Shown one piece after another: positions 30,932-64,000 of a DNA stretch of 64,000 bases (position 1 is its first letter; every line of letters starts with the position of its first letter). The notes beneath the pieces are model-generated. The model was not told the DNA's origin. It was given only the letters and a program-made list of their open reading frames with translations, and searched no databases. Position numbers and translations under genes: made by a program. The stretch lies in NCBI GenBank assembly GCA_016214905.1, contig JACRMQ010000007.1, positions 819,695 through 883,694 of the forward strand. The letters run 5' to 3'. The DNA comes from Ignavibacteriales bacterium (GTDB taxonomy: Bacteria > Bacteroidota > Ignavibacteria > UBA10030 > SZUA-254).

Positions 30932-30969
30932 GAAATCAGATTTAATGCATCATGTTTAATTAAATAAAA

Positions 30970-33806: not shown

Positions 33807-33825
33807 TATTGAAAATAATAATTAT

Positions 33826-34989: not shown

Positions 34990-35750
34990 TTTATATCCTC
35001 GAGGATTCTCTTACTAGCAGGATGGCAGTAGATGATGGCATTCCACCATCGTTGTCGGATATTTTTAACAACCACATCCATATCGAGCGTTCTGATGTTT
35101 GAGACTAATTTATTGATTTTTTCGATATCTGCAAGATTATCGATTGCTCTGTTCAGTATTATGATTCCTTTCGGTGTCAGTAAATTTTTGAATTTCCGGA
35201 TTAACTTTAATTGATCGATGAAGTTGATTTGGTTTTCATTATTATAAACATCATCTATAATTATGTCGAATATCCTGTTTTCATTACCGAACAGTTCGAA
35301 TATTTTACTCGCCGATATGTTCCTGATTTCTATGTTCGAGATATTATCCACAAAAAAATACTTTTTTGCAATCTCGATGATGATAGGGTCTCGTTCAATA
35401 ACCGTAATAGATTTTGGTTTAAGTCTTTTTTGAATTAATGCTAAAGAAGAACCGCCCCCCAACCCTAACAAGAGAATGTCGGGTTCAGGTGTAAGAGAAT
35501 ATGGAATTCGAGACATTCTTCCCCAGTATTCTCTGTTCAACTCACCGAAATTTATTCCGGTGGTGATATATGAATGTGTTGCGCCGTCGATAGTAAGAGA
35601 ACGTTCGGCACCAAGATCAGATACCCGAATATTTCCTGAAATGGGGGATTGAGTTTCCAAAAGAATAACAGGTTTAAAAAAACGAGTGCGAAGACGATGA
35701 ATAATTCGATTAATCCGCAATCTGGAAAAATATTTTACAAAATTTGTCAT
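34986..35750 (-). CDS. spermidine-synthase-like SAM-binding protein
   Basis: 254 residues with the Rossmann fold of the spermidine synthase/methyltransferase superfamily: LLLGLGGGSSLALIQ (nucleotide loop), ITVIERDPIIIEIA (acidic ribose-binding strand), and DIIIDDVYNNENQ (active-site region). Such proteins in polysaccharide loci may be methyltransferases or aminopropyltransferases; the substrate cannot be told from sequence. It overlaps genes on both sides by 4 bp, between two GNAT proteins, so it works with them. Confidence 0.8.
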   Translation of the reverse strand: MTNFVKYFSRLRINRIIHRLRTRFFKPVILLETQSPISGNIRVSDLGAERSLTIDGATHSYITTGINFGELNREYWGRMSRIPYSLTPEPDILLLGLGGGSSLALIQKRLKPKSITVIERDPIIIEIAKKYFFVDNISNIEIRNISASKIFELFGNENRIFDIIIDDVYNNENQINFIDQLKLIRKFKNLLTPKGIIILNRAIDNLADIEKINKLVSNIRTLDMDVVVKNIRQRWWNAIIYCHPASKRILEDIK

Positions 35751-37099
35751 TGATTCATCTCGTTAATATTTTTCCGTTTTTCAACCGGAGAATGACGACC
35801 GATGAAATTCAATCCAAGTCGTGTAAGATTACACATAATCATGAATATATATTTAGTTCGATCGGTTATGGACCTCGGTTTAGTGAGCAAGAACCTTCGG
35901 TATTCATAATACTCTTTTTTAACACGATTGCGGCATTTTCCGCCGAGTTCATAAAGGAGGTAGAGCCAAAATCCGGGTGATCTGCTAATTCTATTCGGTT
36001 TAATGCGTAATAGATAATTTTTTCGAAACGTGGCTTCCCATTCCGAAAATTTGTACGGTTCGTCGCCCCGCATATAATCGAACACTTCCATATTTTCTTT
36101 AATGCCGTCTGCCATAACGATACTTCTCAAAAATAGTCCCGGGCTGAAACGCATAACGTCTTCCGTACCATATGCGTTGCTTTGATACATGTACATTCGT
36201 TTCTTAAAATAAAATCCATAACTCGTCGCGACCGGTTCGTTATTTATCCGGAGGATATAAATCCGGAGCCATCCATTATGTGCGAATTTTTTTGAGAATT
36301 CGAGGTGGAATTCCTTATGCATTGAACTGTCGAATGCACTCGGATGTCCGAGACTTTTCCATCGTTTGCCATGGATGTCGGAAAATTCATCTATCGCTTT
36401 TTGTAAATTATCCGTTTCACGGGTGTAAAGATCAATCGATGTGTGATAATTACTCTGAAGTTTTTTGACTTTACGTTTAAAGTTATGTCTACTAGTTGAT
36501 CCCATATTCTCGATGAGCAAGTCCGGAGAATTTGGAAGAGATACTTGCGGACAGATGTTCCCCTGGTATTTGATTAATTTCAATCTATATTTTTCAGTGA
36601 ACCGGGGAAAATGTTGAACTGTTTGTGTTTCTTCGTTTACATCTTCTATGTCGAAAAGATTCCATGCGGAACCGGAAGATGCAAGATAGTTAGCGAATCG
36701 TTCGAAGAGATAATCTTCATGGCCCGGCAGGATGATGAAATTTACATAATCGCTCAAACCTCTTCCTAAAAATTGCAATCGCTTTGCGACCGGAATGCCG
36801 GCTATCTTTACCGTTTCTAAAAATAAGGGAGCAATTCCTTCAATCTTATCGTCGCAATAAAATACCAATATGTGAAGTTTGAAATTTGGTTTGACAAAAT
36901 ATTTCCACCAAGTGCGAAGCCATTCATAACTTTGATAAATTGTTACATCCGATTCGTTGAAAAGTTTTGTCCAATCATTTTCAAGGGCGTCGAAGTCAGT
37001 GGTGCTGCCGACTATTCGCATCTGTCTCTTTATATGTATTGAATCCGGTTTCTGAGATTGAACCGGCGATTGGGTCGGATGCTCAATTTTTGAAATCAT
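35747..37099 (-). CDS. GNAT/FemAB-like acyltransferase 3
   Basis: 450 residues, longest of the five. It has YEWLRTWWKYF, then FSPGLFLRSI and MRGDEPYKFSEW. The first 30 residues are a Pro/Gln-rich extension absent from the others. The C-terminal 70 residues are basic (KEYYEYRRF). The RGDExYKF ending matches the paralogue at 41545. Presumed acyl or aminoacyl transfer to a sugar. Four-base overlap with the spermidine-synthase-like gene downstream. Confidence 0.78.
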   Translation of the reverse strand: MISKIEHPTQSPVQSQKPDSIHIKRQMRIVGSTTDFDALENDWTKLFNESDVTIYQSYEWLRTWWKYFVKPNFKLHILVFYCDDKIEGIAPLFLETVKIAGIPVAKRLQFLGRGLSDYVNFIILPGHEDYLFERFANYLASSGSAWNLFDIEDVNEETQTVQHFPRFTEKYRLKLIKYQGNICPQVSLPNSPDLLIENMGSTSRHNFKRKVKKLQSNYHTSIDLYTRETDNLQKAIDEFSDIHGKRWKSLGHPSAFDSSMHKEFHLEFSKKFAHNGWLRIYILRINNEPVATSYGFYFKKRMYMYQSNAYGTEDVMRFSPGLFLRSIVMADGIKENMEVFDYMRGDEPYKFSEWEATFRKNYLLRIKPNRISRSPGFWLYLLYELGGKCRNRVKKEYYEYRRFLLTKPRSITDRTKYIFMIMCNLTRLGLNFIGRHSPVEKRKNINEMNQ

Positions 37100-37108
37100 T
37101 GATTTAAG

Positions 37109-38323
37109 TTACTGCCCCTTTCTGTTTAGTTGATCCATACGGGTTAACTCTGAATTTTTTAAAAAGATTTTGAACTTTCTGAGCAATCTATCTCGATATT
37201 CCTGAAAAATTCGTCTTACAGTAAAAAAGTGCATTTTAACCAGTACAAGAAACAGGAATCGCGAAAACCAGTCTTTGTTGAAAATTACAATTTCGATGTA
37301 TGGTTTCGTTATAGGGAGCCAATGCTGTTTGGCAGTTGTCATTCCCCATAACATATTTATGGAATTATATTTTTGTTCGAAGGCATATTCAATTTCTTTC
37401 GCAAGCAGTATATTGCCGGGACTATATAAATGATATTTTGAGTCGTAACTGCCTTTTAAACTTACGACTGAATTATTGAATAAAATATTATAATCATACG
37501 CGATATATTTGCCTGCTACACTCAGTAGCCATAATTGAATCGTTACATCACCAACACAATTACCGGGAAGCCGGTAAAAGAAGTCACGGAACGCGGTTGA
37601 ATTAATGCTGATCCCGACATCCCACTTCCAACTCCTTTTTTCAATATCCAAAAGTGTTGCCATGTGATATTGGAGATCACTTTTCGTTGTGTACAATTGA
37701 ATGTCTATTTTACCAACTGCATTTAATTTTTTTTGTGCGGCATTTAGTTGTTTCCTGAAATTTCTTGAAAGAGATTTGAAATAGTCGGGCCATGAATCGC
37801 TAATCCTGAGAATTACGTTATCAAAGACAACTTTCGCGTCATTAATGAAACCTAATGCGCGAGAGGCAATTTTTACATGCTCGATGTTTGGCGAATCACC
37901 TGAAATCGGATTGAGGTGAATGAAATGCCAATGAAAATTATCTTTTAAAAATTGAATTATCGCTTTAAATAAATCATCATTGCTGTTCGGAGTAATAAAA
38001 TCGAACGCCGCTGTAATGCTCGAAGGTGAATCAGCGTAACGCGACATTGAGAGAAATCTTATTTCCCGGATATTTAGAAATAGAAATCTATCTTTCACCA
38101 GCATGAACGGTGCAATGCCTATAATATTACCTTCCTTTTTGATAACTAAGACAATTAATTCTTTATCATCATCTTTCATGCAATGCCACCACGTTGTCAA
38201 CCATTCGTAAGTTAAACAAGGTGAATCTGTCCCTACCTGTTTAACAAGTCTATCCCAATCAGTACGAATTGCTGTAAGCTGCTCAAGAGATTTTAGCGCT
38301 TCTATTTGATAAATGTTCGACAT
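37109..38323 (-). CDS. GNAT/FemAB-like acyltransferase 4
   Basis: 404 residues. It has YEWLTTWWHCMKDD, YSPGNILLAKEIEYAF and NMLWGMTTAKQHW. With the protein at 32601 it forms the LWG...W subgroup, and the two are alike across their length (for example WDVGISINSTAF here and WSRGVRINEKVF there), so one is probably a recent duplicate. C-terminus is basic and amphipathic. Nine bases separate it from GNAT 3. Confidence 0.78.
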   Translation of the reverse strand: MSNIYQIEALKSLEQLTAIRTDWDRLVKQVGTDSPCLTYEWLTTWWHCMKDDDKELIVLVIKKEGNIIGIAPFMLVKDRFLFLNIREIRFLSMSRYADSPSSITAAFDFITPNSNDDLFKAIIQFLKDNFHWHFIHLNPISGDSPNIEHVKIASRALGFINDAKVVFDNVILRISDSWPDYFKSLSRNFRKQLNAAQKKLNAVGKIDIQLYTTKSDLQYHMATLLDIEKRSWKWDVGISINSTAFRDFFYRLPGNCVGDVTIQLWLLSVAGKYIAYDYNILFNNSVVSLKGSYDSKYHLYSPGNILLAKEIEYAFEQKYNSINMLWGMTTAKQHWLPITKPYIEIVIFNKDWFSRFLFLVLVKMHFFTVRRIFQEYRDRLLRKFKIFLKNSELTRMDQLNRKGQ

Positions 38324-38377
38324 TTAAAGTTCTATTGAAATGATTCGCTTATGATAATTGTGACGATAATAATGTTT

Positions 38378-39595
38378 TCATTTATCTGTTCGACTTAATT
38401 GAAAAATTTTTTCGCATCTATGTTTAATGAATTTCATTGTTTTGCTGAGAAAGGGAAGCGGGTCGTTCCAACGGAAATAAAAAAAATGTTGGTAATGTGC
38501 TATACTGGTTATCCATTTCATCCAACCCAGCTTACCGTTTTTATGCATTTCTCTGAATGCTAAGAAATCGCTTGCAAGCCTGATTATCCGAACACCTCGT
38601 TTGTAATCGATTTCCGGCAATGGTTTGCCGAGGAGGTGATTATAAACGAGGAGAGGCCAATCCAATCCTGATAATGGAAGTAACTCCGTTGTACCGGTGA
38701 AACGTGGATTACATTCGATAAATTTAAATGAACCATCGCGTGCATCTTTGATAAATTCCACAGTTCCGATTCCCTTCAAACCTACACTTTTAATAAACCG
38801 TAATCCGAGATCTGCAACTACCTGATTCCAGTTGGAAATATTGTATGTCCCAAGCCCGAATAAATTAGGATACTGACGAAACCGGAGTTTAGTAAAATGA
38901 AATAGCGGTTCCCCGTTTCTATCGATGTAAGTATAATAACTGTGGTATGCATCTGTAGCAGTGGGAATCAATTCAGTCACCATCATTTTTAAATTAAATT
39001 TGTCGGCTTCTCTGAACTTATCAAATAATTCTTTTTCCGAGTTAATGACAAATAATTTTAATGATGGAAAATGATTTGCAAAAATATGAGACTCGCGCGG
39101 TTTTAAAGCGCACGGATATTTTATTACATTCGTCAATGTTCGAAGATCATCAATTGAATTAACAGGCCAAGTTCCCGGTATATCTAATTTGTGCTTACAA
39201 ACCAGATCGTAAGTTTTTAACTTATCTAATAAAACAAGAGTGAGATTGTCGTCGCCTTCAATTATATTATAAAACTTTTCAAGCTGTTTCCGGTGATGCG
39301 CTATTAAAGTTAAACCTTCGTCGCAACAAGGGATCAATATGGGGCGATCATGAATCTTATGTCCGTCATTGATTAGCCAATAGTACCAGCCATTAATATT
39401 ATTATTATCCGCCGGAAGATGTACGCCTGTGCAATAACGGGAGGAATATGCATCACTTTGAGGGTCATCGAGAACGAATGTTCGGGCATTTACACGTGCC
39501 AGAGACCGCCCAATGGAAAGCGCGATGATGCCGCCGCCAAGCAGAATCACCGGTGTAACATCGGTTTTCGATTTATATCGTGATAATTCCTTCAT
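38378..39595 (-). CDS. ATP-grasp ligase-like protein
   Basis: 405 residues. An N-terminal Rossmann-like preATP-grasp domain (VILLGGGIIALSIGRSLA) is followed by an ATP-grasp fold with YPCALKPRES and FIECNPRFTGTTELLP, the metal-binding Glu/Asn pair. ATP-grasp enzymes join a carboxylate to an amine through an acyl phosphate. With five GNAT-type transferases nearby, ligation of an amino acid or similar acid to a sugar is plausible. It has its own 54-bp spacer from the GNAT 4 gene. Confidence 0.82.
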   Translation of the reverse strand: MKELSRYKSKTDVTPVILLGGGIIALSIGRSLARVNARTFVLDDPQSDAYSSRYCTGVHLPADNNNINGWYYWLINDGHKIHDRPILIPCCDEGLTLIAHHRKQLEKFYNIIEGDDNLTLVLLDKLKTYDLVCKHKLDIPGTWPVNSIDDLRTLTNVIKYPCALKPRESHIFANHFPSLKLFVINSEKELFDKFREADKFNLKMMVTELIPTATDAYHSYYTYIDRNGEPLFHFTKLRFRQYPNLFGLGTYNISNWNQVVADLGLRFIKSVGLKGIGTVEFIKDARDGSFKFIECNPRFTGTTELLPLSGLDWPLLVYNHLLGKPLPEIDYKRGVRIIRLASDFLAFREMHKNGKLGWMKWITSIAHYQHFFYFRWNDPLPFLSKTMKFIKHRCEKIFQLSRTDK

Positions 39596-39676
39596 GGTCT
39601 CATTTTGAGATTCTGCTGAATAAATATTTACATCTTGTATAGAGTGAATGCATGATGTTCTGTATTTGTAAATGCT

Positions 39677-40441
39677 TCATTCATGTTTAGAATAAATTTT
39701 ATCATTAGAGCGAACTGTATTCAATGATATATCTACTGTGCCGCCATTTAAAAGTATGCGGATTGCTCTAATAAAACTGAACTGCATAAATAGATCAGTT
39801 GAAATCGGTTCAATTGGTTCTTGATCGATGCTATCAAGCGAATGCGATCTTGTTATAATCCTTAATATCTCGTGATGATTTAAGTTGAGAGATGCCAGCT
39901 CATTTGCAGAATTCGAATAAGGAACCGAGAGCGCAATATCTTCTGGCTGAATGTCCGTTAGTTTATCAATTGCGCGTGAATTTAAATAATTCAATGATTT
40001 ATTACGATATTTTTCAGTCAGAAGAGGAGAGTCATGAACATTTTCCATGAATAGGATTGGACAAGTAACTATATCCGGTATGAAGGGAAATCTTGCCAAA
40101 TCTTCATTGGTCGTGATTATAATCCATGGTTTTATAATTCCAATAATATTCCGTATTTGAGCAGGAGAATATGTCTGGTTAATCGGTATTGCTACGCCCC
40201 CGCTGCGAATCGTGGCAAAGATTGCAGTGACCTCAGCAGTCAGGTTTTTCATCAACAACATAACTTTACCGCTCTTGTGTAATCCTTCTAAGATTAAAAT
40301 ATCGGAAAGGATGTCGATGTTATTAACAAGGTCAGAATATGTCACCGTTGTGTCATCTGATATCAATGCGGTTTTTTCACCGCATCGTGCTGATATTTCG
40401 GCTAACTTCTTATGTGCCAAAGACATTTTATTATTAACCAT
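39677..40441 (-). CDS. truncated, degenerate AMP-binding (acyl-CoA synthetase-like) protein
   Basis: 254 residues, about half the length of acyl-CoA synthetases. The N-terminal region fits the family (TALISDDTTVTYSDLVNN, VAIPINQTYSPAQIRNII). Where a functional enzyme has the Ser/Thr/Gly-rich ATP loop (T-S-G-T-T-G-x-P-K-G), this one has SVPYSNSANELASLN, and the C-terminal adenylation and lid domains are missing. It is therefore unlikely to make acyl-AMP and may be a remnant or a substrate-binding relic. It overlaps the upstream glycosyltransferase by 8 bp. Confidence 0.7.
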   Translation of the reverse strand: MVNNKMSLAHKKLAEISARCGEKTALISDDTTVTYSDLVNNIDILSDILILEGLHKSGKVMLLMKNLTAEVTAIFATIRSGGVAIPINQTYSPAQIRNIIGIIKPWIIITTNEDLARFPFIPDIVTCPILFMENVHDSPLLTEKYRNKSLNYLNSRAIDKLTDIQPEDIALSVPYSNSANELASLNLNHHEILRIITRSHSLDSIDQEPIEPISTDLFMQFSFIRAIRILLNGGTVDISLNTVRSNDKIYSKHE

Positions 40442-41513
40442 TATGTTTGCGTTTATTTTTTTCGGATATCACAATCTCCGCGATTTGTTTTACACTGTCA
40501 ACAAATTGCTCGAGCGTGTGATATTTTTCTAAATATTCTCTTGCAGCTTTTCCCATCCGTTCTGCTCGTTCCGGATCGTTCCAGAGAGATAAAATTGCTT
40601 CGCGGAGCGCATTCGGATTTTGCGTGGGCACGAATATCCCCGTGATACCATCTTGAACCACATCAACCTGCCCCTCTGTTCGAGAACATATAACGGCTTT
40701 TCCCATTGCCATAGATTCAAGGATGCATGTCAATCCGTTATCTGTGTCGGTTGGAAGAACCGGAACAACAACAAACCGGGATTTAGAATACAATTCTCTA
40801 AGTTCCAAATAATTTTTTTTGCCTATAGTTACATTGATCGGAATATCATTTATATCGTACAGCGCTTTCACTGTATCATACAATTTACCGCGTGTTATTC
40901 CCGTTGCTATGTGGCACGGGATGTCGATCCCACGCAACGCTTCGATGAGAGTCGGGTAATCTCTCATTTCCGAACCCGCCGCACAAATCATTGTCGTTTC
41001 TATATTCATCGGACGATAAAAACGCTGATCGGCAAACTTTCGGATGAATGCGATTTTGGATTCAAGTATATTTAATTTTTTTATGGCGAATTCTTTTTGA
41101 ACAGTTGACCACATCAAAATTCGATCGATATGAGATTGAGAAAATTTCAATAATTTTGATTTTTTAGGATTAGAAATCCAGCTGCTCAAAGTAATGTGCG
41201 GAACCGATCTGCCTGTTAATTTCAATAGAATACCGAACGGATAACCTAACCGTTCAGCCCATGTAACGACTATATCGTATCTATGACAAATAAAAAATGC
41301 TTCGAGAATCTGAGAGAGGAGAGTGGGTAGAAACTTATATATCAAACGCCTCCACGCCGGCGCCTTTGAGAGGAATTTTTCGTCGAGCATGTCTGAATTC
41401 ATCGCCGTGCTGTAATATGAGGAACGCGGGTGACGGTCCGCTTCCTCCTCGCGTATGAGTTTCTCGCGATCCGGTCTGTTAAGTCCTGTGGATACTAATG
41501 TTAATACTTTCAT
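40434..41513 (-). CDS. glycosyltransferase family 4 (GT1-type fold)
   Basis: 359 residues with a GT-B fold. The N-terminal part is short and ends near residue 150. The C-terminal nucleotide-sugar domain has YSKSRFVVVPVLPTDTDNGL, CILESMAMGKAVICSRTEG (the E-x7-E family signature), and GIFVPTQNPNALREAI. It probably adds one sugar of the repeat unit in the cytoplasm. Upstream spacing is 31 bp to the GNAT gene at 41545. Confidence 0.88.
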   Translation of the reverse strand: MKVLTLVSTGLNRPDREKLIREEEADRHPRSSYYSTAMNSDMLDEKFLSKAPAWRRLIYKFLPTLLSQILEAFFICHRYDIVVTWAERLGYPFGILLKLTGRSVPHITLSSWISNPKKSKLLKFSQSHIDRILMWSTVQKEFAIKKLNILESKIAFIRKFADQRFYRPMNIETTMICAAGSEMRDYPTLIEALRGIDIPCHIATGITRGKLYDTVKALYDINDIPINVTIGKKNYLELRELYSKSRFVVVPVLPTDTDNGLTCILESMAMGKAVICSRTEGQVDVVQDGITGIFVPTQNPNALREAILSLWNDPERAERMGKAAREYLEKYHTLEQFVDSVKQIAEIVISEKNKRKHNG

Positions 41514-41544
41514 GTCGAAATAATGTATTTGTTGAAAAATTTAA

Positions 41545-42861
41545 TTAATCGGTTTCAGGATGAAAAATAGTTTTTAATTTTTTCACCAGCATCGGTGCTC
41601 TGAATTTCAAATAAGTAAAGATGAAAAGTGGAAATTTTTTACTCTGATGTTGAATCTTCACTAATTCAATTTCTTTGTGTAGAAGGAATCTGATAAAGGA
41701 GATGAATTTTAACAGATTCAGAAAAGGAGATTGCAGAGCGTTCTCGGAATCCGGCAATTTGATTCTCAGATTATAATTATGTGTTAATGTGCTCGTAAAT
41801 TCGAATTTATACGCTTCGTCACCGCGGAGAAGATCGATGGTCGCGATATTTTCGCGGATTCCGTCGTCCACCATCTCGATCAATAATGCAAGTCCGGGTC
41901 TCCGTTTCGCCGCGGGGGTAGATTCATCGAATCCTGTCAGGTAATCATAGAGTCGATTGTTGAATCGGAATGCGAGTCGTCCCGCTACACAATGCTCACC
42001 ATCATCTGCTGTTTTGAACCAGAGCCAGTTGTTCCGGTAAAATTTTAAAATTACCTCGTCAAAAAAGTTTTTATAATTTTTATTCGCGAAGAATCCCGGA
42101 TATCCTATCTTATTCCACCGGTTTTGATGTAATTTGATTAGAGATGAGATTGATATATCGTATTCTTCATGAGACAAAGCACTGCGAACCGAAAAAATCG
42201 TACCTTCTCTGCCTGCCTTCCAAGATTGAGAAAGTCGTCTCTTAATGCTCGGATTTTTTTCATTTAGAAATTTTTCGACGGATGGCGGAGTTGTTACATA
42301 GGGACAAACATCCGCGTGCGAAATTTTATTGCTTAATCCTTTCCGTTGCAGTTCGGGAAGCAGGTGTTTGTACGTATTACTGTCTTCTCTGATATTCAAC
42401 AAAGATATTTCGTCATAAATTTGAGAATTTTCTGTGAGATAATTTGATAATGCTTCCGAAAATATTTTTTCATATTGAGGTTTTATCAGGACATCGAGAT
42501 AATCGCTAGGACCGTCATCCAAAAAAATACCGAACGACTTATTGAATGCGTTCCCGCCACCTAACAGACACAGGCGGCGATAAAATATCTTTCCGAATAA
42601 TGAATCTGCCTGGACGTAGAATGGCGCTATACCAACAATTTCGTTGCCATGATAAAAAATCAAAATATACAAAAAATCGTTTTTCGGATTGTTATAATTT
42701 TTCCACCATGAATAGAGCCACGAATGAGTTTGATAAATATGAGCATTTGAATTTTCCGCAAATTTATTCCATTCTAATTCGAAATCGGAAAAATCAGTCC
42801 ATTTGTCGATTAATACAACCTTTAAATTAGATGGAGATATTTCACTGTGATTATTTGTCAT
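41545..42861 (-). CDS. GNAT/FemAB-like acyltransferase 5
   Basis: 438 residues. It has HSWLYSWWKNYNNP, RRPGLALLIEMVDDGIRENI and LLRGDEAYKFEF. The GDExYKF ending places it with GNAT 3. It is the first of the five from the promoter side, and lies next to the deacetylase, which would free an amino group on a sugar for acylation. C-terminal tail basic. No signal peptide. Confidence 0.78.
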   Translation of the reverse strand: MTNNHSEISPSNLKVVLIDKWTDFSDFELEWNKFAENSNAHIYQTHSWLYSWWKNYNNPKNDFLYILIFYHGNEIVGIAPFYVQADSLFGKIFYRRLCLLGGGNAFNKSFGIFLDDGPSDYLDVLIKPQYEKIFSEALSNYLTENSQIYDEISLLNIREDSNTYKHLLPELQRKGLSNKISHADVCPYVTTPPSVEKFLNEKNPSIKRRLSQSWKAGREGTIFSVRSALSHEEYDISISSLIKLHQNRWNKIGYPGFFANKNYKNFFDEVILKFYRNNWLWFKTADDGEHCVAGRLAFRFNNRLYDYLTGFDESTPAAKRRPGLALLIEMVDDGIRENIATIDLLRGDEAYKFEFTSTLTHNYNLRIKLPDSENALQSPFLNLLKFISFIRFLLHKEIELVKIQHQSKKFPLFIFTYLKFRAPMLVKKLKTIFHPETD

Positions 42862-47163: not shown

Positions 47164-47919
47164 TTAATTATGATTATGTCTAAAAATTCTTGTGTAAAGA
47201 ACAAGTGCCGCAAAATGAGGCAATGCGAGCATCCGTTTCCATCTCCAAGGTTCGCGAATTAAGCGATACAGCCATTCCATTCCTACTTTCTGCATCAGTA
47301 AAGGTGCGCGGGGCGAGACGCCTGCTATAAAATCGAATGTGCCGCCGATACCTATCGCGATTGGAACTTGCAATTTTTTCTGGTTGCGCGCTATCCAAAT
47401 ATCCTGGTTAGGAGCGCCGTATGCCACGAGAAGAATATGCGGTTTGGCGTCAGTTATTTTTGAACAGATATCATCTTCGTCTTCAATTCTGGGTGAACCA
47501 GAGAAAGTGCCAACAATCTTTATCCCCGGATATTTGGTTCGTAGAATATTAGCGGCTTGTTCTGCAACTCCATCTGCCGCGCCGAGAAAAAATATTCTCC
47601 AATCGTTGTCACGAGCCAGCTCGGAAATTCGCTCAACTGTATCAACACCGGTAACTCGCTCCGGTATTTGTTTCCCTAACAATTTAGAAGCCAAAACTAT
47701 CCCTATGCCATCGGGAAGAGAAAGTTTCGCCTCGTTCAGAATATTCCGGAACAAAATATTCTTTTGAGCTTTCATCACAAATTCCGGATTTACTGTAACT
47801 ATTTGATGATAGCCGCCATCCGAAATTGCCGACTTCACGAAGTTCAGTGTATCTTTCATTGTTACACGATCGACCCGTACATCTAATATCTTTACCGAAG
47901 TAAAATTATGATTCATCAT
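47164..47919 (-). CDS. WecG/TagA/CpsF-family glycosyltransferase (GT26)
   Basis: 251 residues with the family's ordered motifs: TVNPEFVMKAQ, LPDGIGIVLASKLLG, ERVTGVDTVERI, FFLGAADGVAE, LLVAYGAPNQDIWI and VGGTF-type GIGGTFDFIAG, ending WLYRLIREPWRWKRM. These enzymes transfer a UDP-linked (often N-acetylmannosamine-type) sugar to a polyprenyl-linked acceptor. It fits as the second step after the WecA-like initiator at 54973. It overlaps the polymerase gene by four bases. Confidence 0.92.
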   Translation of the reverse strand: MMNHNFTSVKILDVRVDRVTMKDTLNFVKSAISDGGYHQIVTVNPEFVMKAQKNILFRNILNEAKLSLPDGIGIVLASKLLGKQIPERVTGVDTVERISELARDNDWRIFFLGAADGVAEQAANILRTKYPGIKIVGTFSGSPRIEDEDDICSKITDAKPHILLVAYGAPNQDIWIARNQKKLQVPIAIGIGGTFDFIAGVSPRAPLLMQKVGMEWLYRLIREPWRWKRMLALPHFAALVLYTRIFRHNHN

Positions 47920-49457
47920 TTAACAGCCGGTGTATTTAAAATTTTTGTGGAATCTTCTGTTATATCTAACCTTACTAAGGTAGATAACAAACCCATAATC
48001 ATCCCGAGGTAAACCATATTTCTGTAAAAAGTTAATTGCAAATCAACAAACGAGACAACGATTTGTCCGACGATCGCGATTATAGCAACGGCACAAAGGG
48101 CTTTCAAGTATGGATCCTTTAAACGCATGAAAGTGTATGTCGCACTCAGAACGTACGAATTTATGAAAAGCCAGAATAAGAAAAATCCAATGACACCCAT
48201 CTTCACCATCAGCCAATAAATCTCGTTGTGTGGTATATATTCTCGGAGAGGAAAAGGAATCTTGGGCAACGCTACAGGTTGATCATATTTATTACCGAAA
48301 CCGATACCAATAATAGGAGATCTCCTGACTGTTTGAGCAAGATTATAATTTTCAAAATCTCGGTAAAGGTTTGAATAGTATCTGTCGCCTGCAGCTTCCT
48401 CGTCGGAGGAGAACGAAGATTTAACAAGTTGAGCCGGTAGAGCGATACTGCTTTCGCTGTTCCAAAAGATCGCCAAATAAAATATGCCGACTACAGCAAC
48501 GGGAAACATCCTCTTGAATAGTTTTACCCGTTGAATTTTTGGTAAAAGAATTATAAATGTGATCAGGGCAAATCCAAACGCGGCATATGTTGCACGTCGC
48601 TGAGATAAAATGAAAATTCCCAACAGAGGTAATAACAACCAATATAGGATTTTCTTTTGATTATCATCACTCTTGAATAAAATCATACCGAACAATAGGA
48701 TAAAAAGGGAGACGAAGAACAAAGGATCTTCGTGATTCGTAAGTTCAGTTCTGGATCCGAAACTAAATCCCAATCTCAGGGCGCGAATAACGCCTTGCAT
48801 TGCTTTAAAAGTGAGCGCGCCGATGACAACCCAGATCAGCAGCCGCAGTTGTTCCCGCGATTGGATAATTTGCGGGATAAAAAAATAAATAACTCCCATG
48901 TAGAACAATGCCCTTAATTCCCATAGGGCAGGTAAAAAATCTCCACCTCTTGCTAAACCATAAACCGCAGAAATAATAAGCCAGCCGAAAAAAAGAAGAG
49001 CTGTAAACCAAACCGGCACACGATTCAATTGCACATTCTTGCCGAGAACGATCATTATTATCCAAACCGTTCCAATCAGTAACAATTGGAGTTCAAGCGG
49101 ATTCAGAACGGCAGCATCGATTCTCGAAAAAAGCGGAAGCGCTTTTAAATTTCCAAAATACTCTGTTCCGATTATAGTTATCCCGTAACCTCGCGGCGGA
49201 AATTGGTCAAATAACAACACCATGCCAATGAATAATATGAATCCCCAATCAACTCGGTATAATGTAATCATCACCGCCAAAACGAGAAATATCACGGCCA
49301 CAGTCGCGAATACGCTTCCACCGCTGCTCAAAAATATGATCGATAGAATTAATGAAAGAATGATAATGAGAATGGTGCTTCTGTGTGTGTTAAATTTCGC
49401 AGCTAACCAAGCGAATTTAAATTTCTGAATAATTTTATTTTCCGGTTCGATTTGCAT
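47916..49457 (-). CDS. O-antigen polymerase/ligase-like membrane protein (Wzy/WaaL)
   Basis: 513 residues with about 12 hydrophobic helices and the Wzy_C-type periplasmic loop. That loop ends near PIIGIGFGNKYDQP and REYIPHNEIYWLMVKMGVIG, the P-H-N-x-x-x motif of the family. It likely polymerises repeat units in the periplasm. Its SD overlaps the end of the small membrane protein gene upstream, so both are coupled. Confidence 0.85.
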   Translation of the reverse strand: MQIEPENKIIQKFKFAWLAAKFNTHRSTILIIILSLILSIIFLSSGGSVFATVAVIFLVLAVMITLYRVDWGFILFIGMVLLFDQFPPRGYGITIIGTEYFGNLKALPLFSRIDAAVLNPLELQLLLIGTVWIIMIVLGKNVQLNRVPVWFTALLFFGWLIISAVYGLARGGDFLPALWELRALFYMGVIYFFIPQIIQSREQLRLLIWVVIGALTFKAMQGVIRALRLGFSFGSRTELTNHEDPLFFVSLFILLFGMILFKSDDNQKKILYWLLLPLLGIFILSQRRATYAAFGFALITFIILLPKIQRVKLFKRMFPVAVVGIFYLAIFWNSESSIALPAQLVKSSFSSDEEAAGDRYYSNLYRDFENYNLAQTVRRSPIIGIGFGNKYDQPVALPKIPFPLREYIPHNEIYWLMVKMGVIGFFLFWLFINSYVLSATYTFMRLKDPYLKALCAVAIIAIVGQIVVSFVDLQLTFYRNMVYLGMIMGLLSTLVRLDITEDSTKILNTPAVK

Positions 49458-49653: not shown

Positions 49654-50460
49654 TTAGTGATGTTCTTGAGGGAGATCGAATCTGTTCAACACGAAACCGA
49701 GCACTTGTCGTTCATTGATGCGCTGAAATATTGCATCCACTTCTTCCTTCTTAGTTTTTCCCGAGTGAACTACTACAACCAATCCGTGCAGTTGATTAGC
49801 AAAAAGTGTTGGCACGCAGACAGAGTTGATTGCCGGCATATCTACGATTATAAGTTCATAGTGCTGTTCAAGCGAATAGATTAAATCTCTGAATGCGGCG
49901 AGCTGATCAAGCCCCAGCATCGCCCGCGATGAAACGGGAGATGTGTCTTCGTGTATGGAATTATTTGCAAATAGATTTTCATGAGGGATAATTGTGCTGC
50001 CAGCCGTCAGCACATCTAAATTTTCTATCATTGTTCGTGACACATTGATCTCGGAAGATATCAAACCCTCTGTCAATCCCGGAGCTAAAGGAACTCCAAA
50101 AATCCTGTGGAGGTTCGGATTAGCCACATTGAGATCGACCAAAATAGTTTTTTTCTGGGACCCCATGGCGAACGAAACTGCCATGTTGCAACTGATCAAA
50201 GTTTTTCCTTCACCCAGTTTTGCGCTTGTTATGCCGAGAGTTAAATTAACGTTTTGATTATCGCGCGAGAGTAGAAAATAATTAAATGAATTGTAATATT
50301 TGTATTTTATTACAGATTCATCTATGAATTTCCCTGTTTCGGGATTGGTCACAACCGTTTTTATGAGACGAATTATTTTTTCATTTTTTTCATGACTCTC
50401 TGATTCGCCAATGTTTGGGTTAGCACCAGTGTGAGTCTGTTTTGATCCTGGATCTATCAT
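49654..50460 (-). CDS. tyrosine-kinase-like ATPase (CpsD/CapB family) of the exopolysaccharide locus
   Basis: 268 residues. Walker A AKLGEGKTLI, Walker A' region ILVDLNVANPNLHRIFG (usually IDADLRRP) and Walker B LIIVDMPAINSV, as in BY-kinases. There is no C-terminal tyrosine cluster; the chain ends NRFDLPQEHH. It would pair with the Wzz-like protein next door to set chain length. The altered A' motif suggests weakened or changed kinase activity. Confidence 0.82.
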   Translation of the reverse strand: MIDPGSKQTHTGANPNIGESESHEKNEKIIRLIKTVVTNPETGKFIDESVIKYKYYNSFNYFLLSRDNQNVNLTLGITSAKLGEGKTLISCNMAVSFAMGSQKKTILVDLNVANPNLHRIFGVPLAPGLTEGLISSEINVSRTMIENLDVLTAGSTIIPHENLFANNSIHEDTSPVSSRAMLGLDQLAAFRDLIYSLEQHYELIIVDMPAINSVCVPTLFANQLHGLVVVVHSGKTKKEEVDAIFQRINERQVLGFVLNRFDLPQEHH

Positions 50461-50518: not shown

Positions 50519-51868
50519 TCACTTTCGTTCCTCTTTGATGCCTTCGCCTATGAAAGCTATAATCGGCTTTTGATATACTTCAATATCTTTTGGAGCTCTA
50601 ATCGTTGTATCGAGTAATTCTGCAAGTATAACCGAAAGAAATCCAAAAAAGATACTAACGCCCAATCCACCGAATACAATCATCGGACGATTGGGTTTTG
50701 TCGGGGTTATCGGTACTATTGGCGGATCTATTATAACAAATTGATTTGCACTCTTTAGACTCAGATCGCGAGAAGTACGGGCTTGCTCAAGCTTGACTTT
50801 CATCTCATCATACAATTTCCTGTAAATTGTGTAATCCGACTCCTTATCTCCACCCATTTGCTCGCTAATCGACGATTCCCTGATACCATCAATAATTTGT
50901 GTCTTGCGCGTTTCAAGTTCTGTTCGTGATGAATTGATCCTCTTGATTTCAGAATCAATTGAAGTTTTCATCCTTTCCAAGAGTTCCGGCAACTGTGATT
51001 CGATTTTTTGCACTTCGGGATATTGAGGAGTGTAACGCCTGAGGTAATCATCGTATTTTGACAACAGGGTGCGGAGTTCCAGCGCGAAAGGTATATCAAG
51101 ACCCTGCAATTCATAAAGCGAATTTCGGCTTTCCTCAGTTTTCAAATTTAAAGATGAAGTACGAAGGGTATTGAATGCCTGGTGATTTGTTCTTAATTTG
51201 ACGTCGAAATCTGCTATTTGTTTTTCAATGGTTTCCAATTGGCCATACAAAGTGCGACTCTCTGTCGGTAAAGAGCTAATTCGCCGGCCGATTATAGAAA
51301 CAACTTGCCGCTGACTCAATTCAAACTTTTCTTTTATTTCAGCAAGTTTATTTTCGAAAAATTGAACTGACTGTTCCCCTCGCTGATTTTCAACTCCCAT
51401 TAAAGTTTCAATGAAAAGCTTCGATAGAAGTTCAACAGCACGCTTCGCTCTTTGTGGATCGTCGTCCGTAAATGTAATTCTGAACGAGTCGGAACCGCGC
51501 TTCTCAGTTTCAATTAAGTTCGTAAGTGCATTTACAAGTTTTTGTCTTTTTTCTTCAGTCTGGGCTTTCTCTCCATACCCGAGGCTATCTATCAATTTCA
51601 GAAGCATAGTTCTGCTGTAGAGGATTTCATTGAATGTTCTAAGGCGGTCTTCAGACGCCATCGCTCTTGAAATTTCGTAGCCAAGCAAGAGGTTGGGGAT
51701 TTCATCCCGTTGAACAAGTATTGTTGATGAAGATTCGAACTTTTGCGGAAGAAGCAGAGCACCGACTATGCTGATACTTGTGATGATAATTATTGGGATA
51801 TAGAAAAATTTTCTCCTTCTTCGAAAGAGAGAAAATATTTCGTGTAATGTAAATTGTGCAGAACGCAA
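50519..51868 (-). CDS. Wzz/GNVR-type chain-length determinant
   Basis: 449 residues from a TTG start with AAAGGA upstream. There is a membrane helix near 20-38 and another at about 405-428, with a long periplasmic coiled-coil between them. The Pro-rich motif PTKPNRP before the second helix is the Wzz/GNVR hallmark. No fused kinase domain; that activity is supplied by the next gene. It is the first gene of the minus-strand operon, 52 bp from its sigma-54 promoter. Confidence 0.9.
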   Translation of the reverse strand: MRSAQFTLHEIFSLFRRRRKFFYIPIIIITSISIVGALLLPQKFESSSTILVQRDEIPNLLLGYEISRAMASEDRLRTFNEILYSRTMLLKLIDSLGYGEKAQTEEKRQKLVNALTNLIETEKRGSDSFRITFTDDDPQRAKRAVELLSKLFIETLMGVENQRGEQSVQFFENKLAEIKEKFELSQRQVVSIIGRRISSLPTESRTLYGQLETIEKQIADFDVKLRTNHQAFNTLRTSSLNLKTEESRNSLYELQGLDIPFALELRTLLSKYDDYLRRYTPQYPEVQKIESQLPELLERMKTSIDSEIKRINSSRTELETRKTQIIDGIRESSISEQMGGDKESDYTIYRKLYDEMKVKLEQARTSRDLSLKSANQFVIIDPPIVPITPTKPNRPMIVFGGLGVSIFFGFLSVILAELLDTTIRAPKDIEVYQKPIIAFIGEGIKEERK

Positions 51869-51919
51869 TTTGATTTCCTTTAAGTGATGAAAATAATTTC
51901 AGGTAGCGCGTTTATTAAA

Positions 51920-51935
51920 GGCAACTAACATGCCA
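51920..51935 (-). promoter_or_regulatory. sigma-54 (-24/-12) promoter of the Wzz operon
   Basis: Minus strand TGGCATGTTAGTTGCC. GG and GC are 10 nt apart, as required by sigma-54 (consensus TGGCAC-N5-TTGCA). Predicted start near 51909, about 40 bp before the TTG start codon of the Wzz-like gene. Confidence 0.8.
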
Positions 51936-52276
51936 TTAATGATCGTTTATAATTAAGTAAATTCGTGAAAATATTTGTTGTGGCAGATCACTTTTCTCAA
52001 ACAATTCTCATAATTTTATTGTTCCAACCATGAAGTGGGAACTATTTACACGCTAAATTTAAAAATGCTCAATGCCAGCAAAACTCGAGTTATTCTTGTG
52101 TGTAAATTATTTACTTTTATCCATTATTCAATCATTTGGTCTACGAAAAATAAAAGAATCTTAACCGGATGAGCTCTAATTTCAAATCGGTGACCGATAT
52201 CAACATTTATCAGATCTATAATTCGCACATTGTGGTGCCTTTAGGGATCAATTTTCGATATCATAATTGAATCCTA

Positions 52277-52292
52277 TGGCATAGGATTTGCC
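52277..52292 (+). promoter_or_regulatory. sigma-54 (-24/-12) promoter of the Wza operon
   Basis: Plus strand TGGCATAGGATTTGCC, with exact GG-N10-GC spacing and the same TGGCAT and TTGCC ends as the promoter at 51920. Predicted start near 52303, leaving about an 80-nt leader. Confidence 0.8.
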
Positions 52293-52384
52293 AATTAGAA
52301 TAGGCATCTACCAACTCCTCCTGTTAATTGATTTCTGAAACATCTCGTAAGGAGGAAAAATTTTCAACTAATTTATAAAGATTT

Positions 52385-53092
52385 ATGATAAAACGAATAA
52401 TATTATTTGGCATATCTGGTTTGTTTGTGATGATTATAGGGTGTTCACCTTCAGAAGAAATAGCGAAAGATAATCTGACACAAATTATCCGATCGGGTAG
52501 CCGTTCGATGCAAGTTGAAGCGCAATCGAGCGGTTATGTTATTAGGCAATCCGATCAGGTGCAAATTGCAGTTTGGGGATATCCTGAATTTAATTGTCAA
52601 GGACCCGTTAAAGAAAATGGTGCGGTCACTGTTCCTCTTTTAGGAGAGGTTGTCGCAGCGGGATTGACAAAAGAACAATTCACGGAACAATTGAAACAAA
52701 AACTTTCGGTATACATCCAGGGAGAAATTCAATTATCTGCAACGATCACAAGCGCGATTCCCCAAAAGATTGCCGTTCTTGGTGCAATAACAAATCAGAA
52801 TAATTATCCTATTACAACGGATGTGACATTAATCGAAGTTCTTTCTGCCGCAGGCGGTACAACCATCGATTCTGATTTGAGGCATATCAGGATCATTCGC
52901 AATGGTATGAGCGATCAACCGATCGATGTTGATCTAACAGCTTATATAGAGAACGGAAATATTGAAGCTATTCCGATGGTTCGCCCAGGTGATACAGTAT
53001 TTATACCCAAAAAATCGAACGTCATAAGGGAATTATCCGATTTTATGCGTGACGCCATATTTATTTTCGGTTTCTTCCGAATATTTAATTAA
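52385..53092 (+). CDS. Wza-like polysaccharide export lipoprotein (Poly_export/SLBB)
   Basis: 235 residues. The lipoprotein signal ends MIIGC, giving Cys20 as lipidation site. Poly_export domain (about 50-130, YVIRQSDQVQIAVWGYPEF and VPLLGEVVAAGLT) and SLBB domain (about 135-200, IAVLGAITNQNNYPI) follow. It should form the outer-membrane or periplasmic channel for the polymer. GGAGG (52351-52355) lies 29 nt before the ATG with no closer start in frame, so translation may start weakly or use a nearer AAAG. Confidence 0.9.
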   Translation: MIKRIILFGISGLFVMIIGCSPSEEIAKDNLTQIIRSGSRSMQVEAQSSGYVIRQSDQVQIAVWGYPEFNCQGPVKENGAVTVPLLGEVVAAGLTKEQFTEQLKQKLSVYIQGEIQLSATITSAIPQKIAVLGAITNQNNYPITTDVTLIEVLSAAGGTTIDSDLRHIRIIRNGMSDQPIDVDLTAYIENGNIEAIPMVRPGDTVFIPKKSNVIRELSDFMRDAIFIFGFFRIFN

Positions 53093-53104: not shown

Positions 53105-54049
53105 ATGAACAGTTCAAAAAGGATAATTTCATTCATATTCATCCAGTCAATGATTGGATGTTTATTCATTAACAGTCTGGATGCTCAAACGTTGTATTTT
53201 AATTCCAGACATGCACTTATCGGGGCTCGTGCAGCTTCGTTAGCTGATGCACTTGTTGCCGAAGCATACGATGCGAATACGATGTATTCGAATCCGGCGG
53301 CGCTTGTTCACTTAACAAAATCATCATTGGTTCTCAACCATAATCAAGAAAGATATTTCGATGGTATGACGGAAAATGTTGGCTTACCGGTGCGTACCGG
53401 TTTTTCAGAAGCAATGGTTTTTGGTTTGAGCGTAAGTCATATCGGATATTTAAAAAAGGTTACAACCACCAATATCCATCCATTCCAAATCGGTTATGAT
53501 TTTGCATACGCGAAAGAAATAATGCCGACATTCAGCGTCGGTGCCAGGATCGGTGTCGATTATGGACAGGCAGGAAATACAAATTTGCTGGGTGCTTCAG
53601 CATCTCTGGGTATCTGCTATTCTCCTTCACCCGAAATAACATATGGTGCTGCGTACAACGGCATTGGAACAGGAATTCATTATAATATCAGCGGTGGAAC
53701 AACTGCTATTAGGTCAGAGAAATTACCCCAAAGTTTGCAAGCGGGTGTTGCCATGCGGTACCCTGCAATTCCAAATCAGAATATCGTTACCGTGGCAATC
53801 TCCAACGAAAAAATTTTCGGGCAAACAGGTATTCAATACTCCGGTGGTGTCGAGATATATCCGATACAGTTTCTTGCTATTCGTGGCGGTTATACAGTGA
53901 AGAATCTGGATAAGTCTGCCAGAGTTGGCTTAGGTATACGTTCAGGTTATGGTAATTTTGATATTTCTATTTCACCAAGCCGTTCAACGGACCGGTCGAT
54001 ATTCATCACCGGTTCATTCATTCTTTGGAAAACAGAACAACGCTATTAG
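53105..54049 (+). CDS. PorV-like outer-membrane beta-barrel protein
   Basis: 314 residues with a signal peptide ending LDAQ. Alternating strands such as GARAASLADALVA, NPAALVHLTKSSLVLNHNQ and the C-terminal FITGSFILW fit the PorV/PorQ/UPF0164 barrel family of the FCB group. PorV delivers T9SS cargo for surface attachment, which suits the sorted proteins elsewhere in this window. It starts 12 bp after the Wza-like gene. Confidence 0.75.
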   Translation: MNSSKRIISFIFIQSMIGCLFINSLDAQTLYFNSRHALIGARAASLADALVAEAYDANTMYSNPAALVHLTKSSLVLNHNQERYFDGMTENVGLPVRTGFSEAMVFGLSVSHIGYLKKVTTTNIHPFQIGYDFAYAKEIMPTFSVGARIGVDYGQAGNTNLLGASASLGICYSPSPEITYGAAYNGIGTGIHYNISGGTTAIRSEKLPQSLQAGVAMRYPAIPNQNIVTVAISNEKIFGQTGIQYSGGVEIYPIQFLAIRGGYTVKNLDKSARVGLGIRSGYGNFDISISPSRSTDRSIFITGSFILWKTEQRY

Positions 54050-54063
54050 TGAAAGAAATCTAT

Positions 54064-54882
54064 ATGATTAGTTTGGTTACGCAAGAAGTTCTATCTGCCG
54101 ATAGTCCGTCGGTTGAAGAATTATTAAAAAAGATTGAACCGATAATTTTAGGCGGCCTGGGCTTGATTATTGTTGGCGAAGAGGGGACGGAAAGAGAATA
54201 CATTGCTTCACGAATACATCAGATAAGTGGTCGTGAACAACGTCTTTTCAGAAGATTCGATTGTAATTACAATTATCAATCTTTGTTAGAAAAAATAATA
54301 TTTGGTTCGGAAGATTTAGCGCTGACCGGAGTTGAGATCAATCGCGGTACTCTTGAGAATGTTCATAAAGGTTCAATATATTTTGAAAATATTGAAAAAT
54401 TATCGCCTCGAATGATATCTCGCTTAGTGAGAGAAGTTGAGAATCAACATTTTCGTCGGGTTGGCGGTGTTGAAGATATCCCATTAAACGTTCGGTTTTT
54501 TGCAGGAATGGATTCAAAGATCGTTAATAAATTGAATCCTGAGACCAACGAATTAATACATCGATTATTTCCTATTATCGTTAATTTTCCTCCTTTCAGA
54601 GAAAGAAAGAATGATATACTTTATTATTTAAGAAAATCGATCGAAAAGTATTCTTCTTCTCGTGTGATGAGCGATACGATTACTTCGGAGGAATTTCGCC
54701 AATTTGTACTAACTTATTCATGGCCGGGGAATCTTAAAGAATTTGATAATGTTATGAAAAATACTATATCAACTGCCGGATGGAAGAGTATCCGGATGGA
54801 GCATCTGCCTCCATATCTATATCAGCAATATTTGAGTAATAAACAGGTTTTTGCTATAAATTTTAACGAAGGATTAAATTGA
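54064..54882 (+). CDS. sigma-54-activator-like AAA+ protein with degenerate ATPase motifs
   Basis: 272 residues from the ATG at 54064 with GAAAG before it. The order of family elements is kept but key residues are lost. Walker A GESGTGKE appears as GEEGTERE (the Lys is replaced). The sigma-contacting GAFTGA loop appears as LALTGV. Walker B FLDE appears as YFEN. HRLFPIIVNFPPFRERKNDI and SWPGNLKEF match the later conserved parts. There is no receiver or HTH domain. It probably cannot hydrolyse ATP or bind DNA alone, and may modulate a true activator. Confidence 0.8.
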   Translation: MISLVTQEVLSADSPSVEELLKKIEPIILGGLGLIIVGEEGTEREYIASRIHQISGREQRLFRRFDCNYNYQSLLEKIIFGSEDLALTGVEINRGTLENVHKGSIYFENIEKLSPRMISRLVREVENQHFRRVGGVEDIPLNVRFFAGMDSKIVNKLNPETNELIHRLFPIIVNFPPFRERKNDILYYLRKSIEKYSSSRVMSDTITSEEFRQFVLTYSWPGNLKEFDNVMKNTISTAGWKSIRMEHLPPYLYQQYLSNKQVFAINFNEGLN

Positions 54883-54972: not shown

Positions 54973-56910
54973 ATGTTATTACCTTTGATATTAATTTTTG
55001 TTATTCCTCTGATTTTATCGCTAGTTGTAACTCCGTATGTTATCGGATTCGCCGAGCATATCGGTGCGATGGATATGCCGAATGATCGGAAGGTACATAA
55101 ATATCCGATACCGCGTCTGGGTGGAATAGCTATCTATATCAGTTTTTTTGCCGGGTTAATCTTTTCGTTGTATCTTCAACCATCAGTTCATCCGTTTGGC
55201 ACCATCACTCCCAATACCGGAATAATGTTGGTAGTTTCTTTATCGATTGTTTTAATCCTGGGAATTTGGGATGATCTAAAACAATTAACGCCGGGCAAAA
55301 AATTTATTGGCCAGGTACTTGCTGCGTCGATTGTTTATTTTGCAGGGTTCCGTATCTCAACAATTACCTCTCCTATGGATTTCGCGTTATTAGATCTCGG
55401 CTTACTTGATTTCCCCGCTACAATTCTCTGGATCGTAGGAGTTACCAACGCTTTCAATCTGATAGACGGTTTAGATGGGCTCGCATCGGGAGTTGCTCTC
55501 ATCGTTGCCATCACTATTTTCCTGATATCATTTATGAAGAATGATATCGGCTCTGCCATGTTGGCGCTATTACTTGCCGGTGCCGTGCTCGGATTTTTAC
55601 GCTACAATTTTAACCGCGCCCGGATTTTTCTGGGGGATTCAGGATCTCTCTTCATCGGGTTTACACTTGCGATTTTATCGATGACAAGTTCCACTAAAGG
55701 ATCAACCGCATTTTCAATTATCGTTCCGTTTCTCACACTTGGTCTACCGATCATGGATACTATGCTTGCCATGACGAGACGTTTCCTTCGCTCAATGTTC
55801 CCTGAACAAAAAGAATACAAGCCGTTCATACGAAAGATGTTAACATTATTCGATCCTGATAAAGGTCATATTCATCATCAATTGATTAACCTCGGCTTAT
55901 CCCATCGTAAAGTTGTGTTACTTCTTTATGTGGTTTCTGTCGTATTCGGTATCGGAGCGTTCGCGGTAACTGTTACAAACACCTTGAGCGCTATACCAAT
56001 TCTGATAGCGATCAGCGTTGCAACTATAGTTGGTGTTAGTCAATTGAAGTATAAAGAGATGGCTGTCTTACGTAACGGCTATCTGCTTCCGATATATAAA
56101 ATGCAATTGATGAATAATACATTTTTCCTCGGTTTCCTCGATATCGCATTTATTATTATTTCTTTCGTATCTGCAACCGCGTTGGCATCAATAGGTCCAT
56201 CTGGTCTGGCATATAATCAGAGTGTTTTTAAAACGATTATGCTAGTTTCGGGAATTCAATTGGTTATTTTTTATTTCAGCGGATTGTATAAAGGAACATT
56301 CCACCAGTGGGGGTTTGGCGATATATTGAAGATTATAAAAGTCGTTTCAATAGCAGTTGCGGCTACGTGGGGTACTTTTGCGCTCTTTCCAAAGATGGGT
56401 TTTCATTTTAGTATCACAATTTTAATTATCGATTTTTATCTTTTGATAACACTCGTTATGGGAACGAGGATATCGTATCAAATCCTGAATTATTTCTCGA
56501 AGCGCGGTGAACGCGGGAAGAAAAATGTCCTGATATACGGCGCCGATATTAAGGGCGGTCTCATGCTTCAGGAAATGGTGGATGACACCAGTTTGCAGAT
56601 TTCACCTGTAGGATTTTTAGATGATGATCCGAGACTCGAAGGTAAAAGATTAAACGGTTATCCGATTTTCGGTGGCCATTGGAAATTAGAGCGCTTAATC
56701 AATACCAAAGGAATATCGGAAGTAATACTGAGTAACGACTCGATCAAGCCGACAATAATGAAGCGCTTAATTGAAATTGCCAGAAATCATAACATCGTTA
56801 TTCGGAAATTTAAAGTTCGCTTCGAAGAAGTGTCAAGAATAGAACAAAAAACACAGGTTTTCGAAAATCGTCCTTCCGTTTCTGAGCGGAATAAAAAGCA
56901 GTCTGTTTAA
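54973..56910 (+). CDS. WecA/MraY-type initiating transferase fused to FlaA1/CapD-like nucleotide-binding region
   Basis: 645 residues. The N-terminal part (about 1-340) is a PNPT-family enzyme with HKYPIPRLGG, GIWDDLKQL, NAFNLIDGLDGLASG, FLGDSGSL and GHIHHQL, covering the catalytic Asp and His motifs, and would load a sugar phosphate on undecaprenyl phosphate. A second membrane block (about 375-500) and a Rossmann segment (KKNVLIYGADIKGG, VGFLDDDPRLEGKRLNGYPI) resemble the N-terminal half of FlaA1/CapD/PglF dehydratases, without their catalytic C-terminus. This fusion is unusual. Confidence 0.88.
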   Translation: MLLPLILIFVIPLILSLVVTPYVIGFAEHIGAMDMPNDRKVHKYPIPRLGGIAIYISFFAGLIFSLYLQPSVHPFGTITPNTGIMLVVSLSIVLILGIWDDLKQLTPGKKFIGQVLAASIVYFAGFRISTITSPMDFALLDLGLLDFPATILWIVGVTNAFNLIDGLDGLASGVALIVAITIFLISFMKNDIGSAMLALLLAGAVLGFLRYNFNRARIFLGDSGSLFIGFTLAILSMTSSTKGSTAFSIIVPFLTLGLPIMDTMLAMTRRFLRSMFPEQKEYKPFIRKMLTLFDPDKGHIHHQLINLGLSHRKVVLLLYVVSVVFGIGAFAVTVTNTLSAIPILIAISVATIVGVSQLKYKEMAVLRNGYLLPIYKMQLMNNTFFLGFLDIAFIIISFVSATALASIGPSGLAYNQSVFKTIMLVSGIQLVIFYFSGLYKGTFHQWGFGDILKIIKVVSIAVAATWGTFALFPKMGFHFSITILIIDFYLLITLVMGTRISYQILNYFSKRGERGKKNVLIYGADIKGGLMLQEMVDDTSLQISPVGFLDDDPRLEGKRLNGYPIFGGHWKLERLINTKGISEVILSNDSIKPTIMKRLIEIARNHNIVIRKFKVRFEEVSRIEQKTQVFENRPSVSERNKKQSV

Positions 56911-63831: not shown

Positions 63832-64000
63832 TTATTCCAACTGATAACTCGATAACTTGTTGTGTAAAGTTTTACGGCTGATGCCAAGAATTTTTGCCGC
63901 TTTAGCTTTATTGTTACCTGTGGAAACGAGAGTTTGAAGAAACAGTATCCGTTCCGCTTCATGCGCCGTGCAACCGATCGGTATACTGATGCTTGTCTGA
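63832..64000 (-). CDS. NtrC-family sigma-54 activator, C-terminal Fis-type HTH (partial)
   Basis: The last 55 codons of a gene that starts beyond the right edge. They read HEAERILFLQTLVSTG, then KAKAAKILGISRKTLHNKL and a short tail, the Fis-type HTH that ends NtrC-family bacterial enhancer-binding proteins. Such proteins open sigma-54 promoters, so it is a candidate regulator of the two promoters at 51920 and 52277; that pairing is inference. The ATPase and receiver parts are not in the window. Confidence 0.85.
   Translation of the reverse strand, partial: QTSISIPIGCTAHEAERILFLQTLVSTGNNKAKAAKILGISRKTLHNKLSSYQLE

Follow-up and report, generated by a model that had tools for sequence, protein, structure and literature searches.

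The exopolysaccharide (EPS) genes of this Ignavibacteriales genome diverge from 516 bp of non-coding DNA, bounded by the starts of a wzz-like gene (51868, minus strand) and a wza-like gene (52385, plus strand), and this DNA carries two sigma-54 -24/-12 sites that point apart. Judged from the sequence, the two divergent gene switches are very probably real. We consider it highly likely that 51868-52385 works as one control region, in which RpoN would use both promoters and EpsR, an enhancer-binding protein (EBP) from the edge of the locus, would act on dyads between them and activate both sides jointly by looping. All positions refer to the window, the whole stretch of 64,000 nucleotides that was analysed.

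Two divergent sigma-54 sites with spacing-specific promoter context

The minus-strand site, ATGGCATGTTAGTTGCC (51936-51920), lies 68 bp before the wzz-like ORF start and has a predicted transcription start at ~51909 for the wzz-side operon. Its plus-strand counterpart, ATGGCATAGGATTTGCC (52276-52292), lies 109 bp before the wza-like ORF start, with a predicted start at ~52303 for the wza-side operon. Both have the exact GG-N10-GC spacing that an earlier note on this DNA had claimed, in a TGGCAY-N5-TTGC context. They are the sole perfect TGGCA-N6-TTGC matches in the window. Using a weighted -24/-12 score that, with its thresholds, was devised for the present analysis, we found no region with two sites as good among 5000 dinucleotide shuffles, whereas at least one site at the same score appeared in 1.6% of them. 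The latter frequency is what speaks for a chance origin of both sites in AT-rich DNA. Given the lack of any two-site shuffle, the genome-wide context of the motif and the recurrence of the sites across genera, this explanation is contradicted by conservation and almost certainly wrong.

The assembly (3.3 Mb, 99.6% complete, Ignavibacteria) encodes a single RpoN with all three domains present and about 14 EBPs with a full sigma-54-activator domain. Exact TGGCAY-N5-TTGC matches number eight genome-wide, and seven of these are intergenic, each followed at 20-130 bp by a gene in the right orientation. Insertion of one extra base into the motif (TGGCAY-N6-TTGC) gave 19 matches, of which two are intergenic and none lies before a gene. 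The contrast in upstream-of-gene position is significant (Fisher 9e-6) and persists when ATGGCATGTTAGTTGCC and ATGGCATAGGATTTGCC are left out (1e-4). Because nearly all N5 sites precede genes and no N6 control site does, TGGCAY-N5-TTGC behaves as a spacing-specific promoter signature in this genome. The other exact sites are found before genes for two cytochrome-like proteins, hemN and two proteins without a family match (loci L049, L050, L046, L045 and L051, near position 1501).

Conservation of the promoter pair in relatives

The named relatives, which came from a protein search, are mostly Ignavibacteria MAGs. Their loci share the gene order wzy-tyrK-wzz diverging from wza-porV-(pseudo-EBP)-sugar transferase. 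In the window, the minus-strand genes encode a Wzy-like EPS polymerase (47916-49457), a tyrosine autokinase-like ATPase (49654-50460) and, as the first gene of the block, a Wzz/chain-length determinant (50519-51868; TIGR03007-like, below cut-off). On the plus strand follow a Wza-like polysaccharide export protein with Poly_export and SLBB domains (52385-53092), a PorV/PorQ-like outer-membrane protein (53105-54049; below the curated cut-off), the pseudo-EBP described below and a WecA-like sugar-phosphate transferase (54973-56910).

Of 28 orthologous wzz-wza intergenic regions, drawn from Ignavibacteria and two Latescibacterota MAGs and including some close relatives, 26 had a minus site upstream of wzz, at a distance of 42-107 bp, and 24 had a plus site upstream of wza, at a looser cut (score of at least 0.79). 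Two regions lack a minus site, and three to four lack a good plus site. An initial set of 21 such regions contained 14 strict sites, compared with 0.44 expected and a maximum of 3 in 300 shuffles. The -12 element reads TTGA, TTGT or TTGG in several relatives, and the sister species has TTGTC in its plus site, so the C of this element is less constrained than the remainder of the site.

These alignments also bear on a different reading of the sites. The sequence of the plus site forms an inverted repeat in its own right, and sigma-70-like matches in the AT-rich spacer exceed those in shuffles (9 versus 3.7); TGGCAT...TTGCCA might accordingly be a symmetric operator (TGGCA-N7-TGCCA) to which an ordinary regulator binds, with nearby sigma-70 promoters doing the work. 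However, what stays constant among orthologous sites, GC-rich relatives included, is TGGCAY and TTG at a fixed spacing, with endings that vary between TTGCA, TTGCG and TTGAT; the one-base spacing control lacks promoter context. We rejected the symmetric operator on the ground that its symmetry is not conserved among orthologous sites, and regard it as very unlikely. The earlier proposal of two divergent sigma-54 promoters on an exopolysaccharide locus has strong support from the conservation of the sites within the order, from the genome's RpoN and EBPs, and from the dyad and the co-occurring EBP presented below.

Two Latescibacterota MAGs (L100 and L104) have the same EPS gene arrangement, with both sites in L100 and a good minus site in L104. 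The presence of the locus in genomes labelled as another phylum may reflect either horizontal transfer or mis-binning.

A conserved dyad between the promoters

An unsupervised motif search of the orthologous regions with the promoters masked identified a conserved 17-bp dyad, TGTGTAA-N3-TTACACA, between the two promoters. Its log-likelihood ratio was 122, against 55-57 in shuffled sets, and N3 was the best spacing between the half-sites (98.9 versus 31 in shuffled sets). The stronger copy in the window, GTGGGAACTATTTACACGC (52035-52053, no strand), scores 10.3 with a motif trained without this genus, a value that 0.3% of shuffles reach (P 0.003). Measured from its centre, the minus site is 108 bp and the plus site 232 bp away; dyad-to-promoter distances in the orthologous regions are mostly 70-250 bp. 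Such distances are normal for enhancers of the sigma-54 class. A weaker second copy, GTGTGTAAATTATTTACTT (52098-52116, no strand), scores only 5.7; the 63 bp between the two copies correspond to six helical turns, the same kind of phasing that relatives show. Dyad pairs are spaced 21, 30-33, 41-42 or 61-63 bp apart, which corresponds to helical phase (n=11, Rayleigh p ~4e-4), a result that counts as support and not as proof, since the pairs were selected by score and include related loci. The dyad is a probable activator site upstream of both promoters. No EPS-type dyad scoring at least 9.5 was found near the genome's other exact sigma-54 sites, which are therefore probably served by other EBPs.

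The earlier note had instead pointed to palindromes upstream of each promoter. Both exist, and neither held up as an activator site. GTTCC/GGAAC (52021-52025 with 52038-52042) is broken already in the sister species and partly overlaps the real dyad at 52035-52053 by accident. ATCGGTGACCGAT (52186-52198, no strand) is genus-specific: its counterpart in the sister species is ATCGGTGATCGAT, and a scan of other orthologous regions gave no match to it. In ~370 bp of sequence, palindromes with arms of 6 bp are not rare.

EpsR is the candidate activator

The 3' end of the gene that we call epsR lies at 63832-64000 on the minus strand, and the gene continues past the window (G000:C7:883526-884875; L022:3527-4876). 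All features that we looked for in a functional EBP are present in EpsR: an AAA+ domain with an intact Walker A, a Walker B and GAFTGA, and a Fis-type HTH, whose helix is nearly invariant among orthologues. The N-terminal domain is receiver-like with a weak Pfam match, and aligning G000 with the orthologues revealed, on inspection, none of the phosphorylation residues (the acidic pair, the phospho-Asp and the Lys); in several orthologues the alignment begins only at the AAA+ domain. A receiver without these residues makes input from a histidine kinase unlikely, and EpsR is probably governed by another kind of signal. By analogy with FleQ and VpsR, our guess would be c-di-GMP.

Among 98 genomes of the order, 25 have both EpsR and the locus, two the locus only, two EpsR only and 69 neither, with orthologues defined by a cut of E 1e-100 that was set after the matches had been seen and that splits those of at least 49% identity from those of at most 45%. 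EpsR thus occurs in 25/27 genomes with the locus and 2/71 without it (p ~1e-18 ignoring kinship, a value that is too small as related genomes are not independent). A control EBP group from the same genome tracks the locus differently: it is present in five genomes, of which four have the locus. The epsR gene is near the locus in G000, G001, G003 and G020 and away from it in many other genomes.

This lack of linkage, together with the ~14 EBPs in the genome, would be compatible with real sigma-54 promoters that are activated by another EBP, EpsR merely travelling with the locus or regulating something else there. Against this stand the tight tracking of the locus by EpsR and the distribution of the control group, which leaves the other 23 locus-bearing genomes unexplained; we consider activation by another EBP unlikely. 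Activation by EpsR remains the preferred reading. Since the two divergent sites, the candidate activator site and the activator gene recur together in relatives, the promoter pair looks like an old, dedicated on-switch for polymer making.

We infer the following sequence of events. RNA polymerase carrying the genome's single RpoN would wait in a closed state on both promoters of the region. EpsR, as a dedicated NtrC-type activator, would bind one or two dyads ~110-230 bp upstream and loop over, and its ATPase and GAFTGA loop would open both promoters. The export genes on the wza side and the chain-length and polymerase genes on the wzz side would then be turned on together.

A degenerate EBP homologue in the wza operon

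Third in the wza unit is a gene (54064-54882, plus strand) for a sigma-54-activator AAA+ domain with its lid, here termed the pseudo-EBP. The features that mark EpsR as a functional EBP are missing from it: the window copy lacks GAFTGA, an intact Walker A, the Walker B Asp-Glu and an HTH. All 11 orthologues have lost GAFTGA, and in each of them the Walker B Asp-Glu is changed or missing; one (L091) retains an HTH-like tail as judged by eye. Purifying selection acts on the intact gene (dN/dS of 0.16 relative to the sister species; 0.02-0.07 for its neighbours and EpsR), which is therefore not decaying. The EpsR AAA+ domain is the best own-genome match for 9/11 pseudo-EBP orthologues, by narrow margins, and may be the source of the pseudo-EBP.

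The pseudo-EBP is missing at this position in about half of the loci, which indicates that the switch does not need it. Lacking GAFTGA, it should not activate sigma-54 polymerase. The most economical hypothesis is that it modulates EpsR by entering mixed rings with it; a structural or an unrelated role is just as conceivable. A more specific version, in which the protein is a dedicated brake, an ATPase-dead and sigma-54-blind subunit that poisons EpsR rings and thereby exerts product-linked negative feedback on both promoters, is a tentative idea that we hold to be doubtful. A conserved degenerate EBP inside the operon under control is unusual, and such a brake, if true, would represent a new mode of sigma-54 feedback.

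Relation to known systems

Among described systems, the PEP-box/PrsR circuit of Proteobacteria (PrsK/PrsR), in which a 17-nt upstream motif, sometimes repeated, accompanies a sigma-54 site (Haft 2006, PMC1569441), comes closest; RpoN-dependence of one PEP-box target has been shown for Aquincola pepA (PMC9850573). Both systems combine an upstream motif, a -24/-12 site and a Fis-type EBP, and both are tied to EPS loci with Wza, Wzz and tyrosine-kinase homologues. Compared by description, PEP-box motif 1 is 17 nt long and ends in TTTACA, and the present dyad is 17 bp long and contains TTTACA. In contrast to the PEP-box system, the promoters here drive the EPS genes themselves, divergently, and the lineage lies outside the Proteobacteria, where Haft found the motif. 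A search for exosortase in this genome gave no match to PF09721, and EpsR scored 341 bits against the PrsR model TIGR02915 (cut-off 502.6), no higher than its paralogues. On these two results we rejected membership in the PrsR/PEP-CTERM group; the present circuit works like the PEP-box system and is not classed as one.

Control of the bacterial exterior by sigma-54, EPS included, is put forward as a general rule by Francke 2011 (PMC3162934), and the present locus, with RpoN and an EBP on polysaccharide genes, fits it; the text searched does not mention Bacteroidetes or Chlorobi. The locus, the dyad and the EBP group described here are specific to this lineage. They amount to a concrete control circuit for exopolysaccharide, with promoters, candidate activator sites, an activator and a possible brake, in a largely uncultured lineage, and would extend to Ignavibacteria a mode of EPS gene control by sigma-54 and EBPs that has mostly been described from Proteobacteria. 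The patchy joint presence of locus and EBP suggests that genomes retain or lose the circuit as one module.

TyrR, DhaR, HupR and VpsR are EBP homologues in which GAFTGA is defective (PMC3162934). The pseudo-EBP likewise has no GAFTGA; it differs from them in also having lost the HTH and the Walker B residues, and is therefore unlikely to work as they do, as a conventional regulator that binds DNA. Interactions between paralogous EBPs are exemplified by the pair HrpR/HrpS. The Azotobacter nitrogenase regulators NifA, VnfA and AnfA are another case (PMC9542535). In these examples, two EBP-type AAA+ proteins are tied to one regulon as at the present locus, but the partners are active EBPs whereas the pseudo-EBP is catalytically degenerate.

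Gene content around the control region

The earlier note had placed the whole surface-polymer programme under one regulator type. Only the first gene on each side is linked to the promoters here, and the long minus-strand block may have internal promoters of its own. The minus-strand block reaches ~28.8 kb and includes glycosyltransferases, GNAT proteins, a flippase and a deacetylase. A perfect AGGAGG at 52350-52356, kept in the sister species, is ~30 bp upstream of the wza ATG and hence too distant to serve it; the reading frame showed no other start further upstream. The minus-strand glycosyltransferase block contains, at 32601-42861, genes for an AMP-binding protein and for five proteins of the GNAT type (Acetyltransf_6). 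At its far end (28853-31338, minus strand) are genes for a single-domain receiver and a 692-aa protein, both of which are also near the locus in relatives. The minus strand at 17980-28806 encodes a protein of 3608 aa that has InlB B-like repeats and is probably a giant protein of the cell surface.
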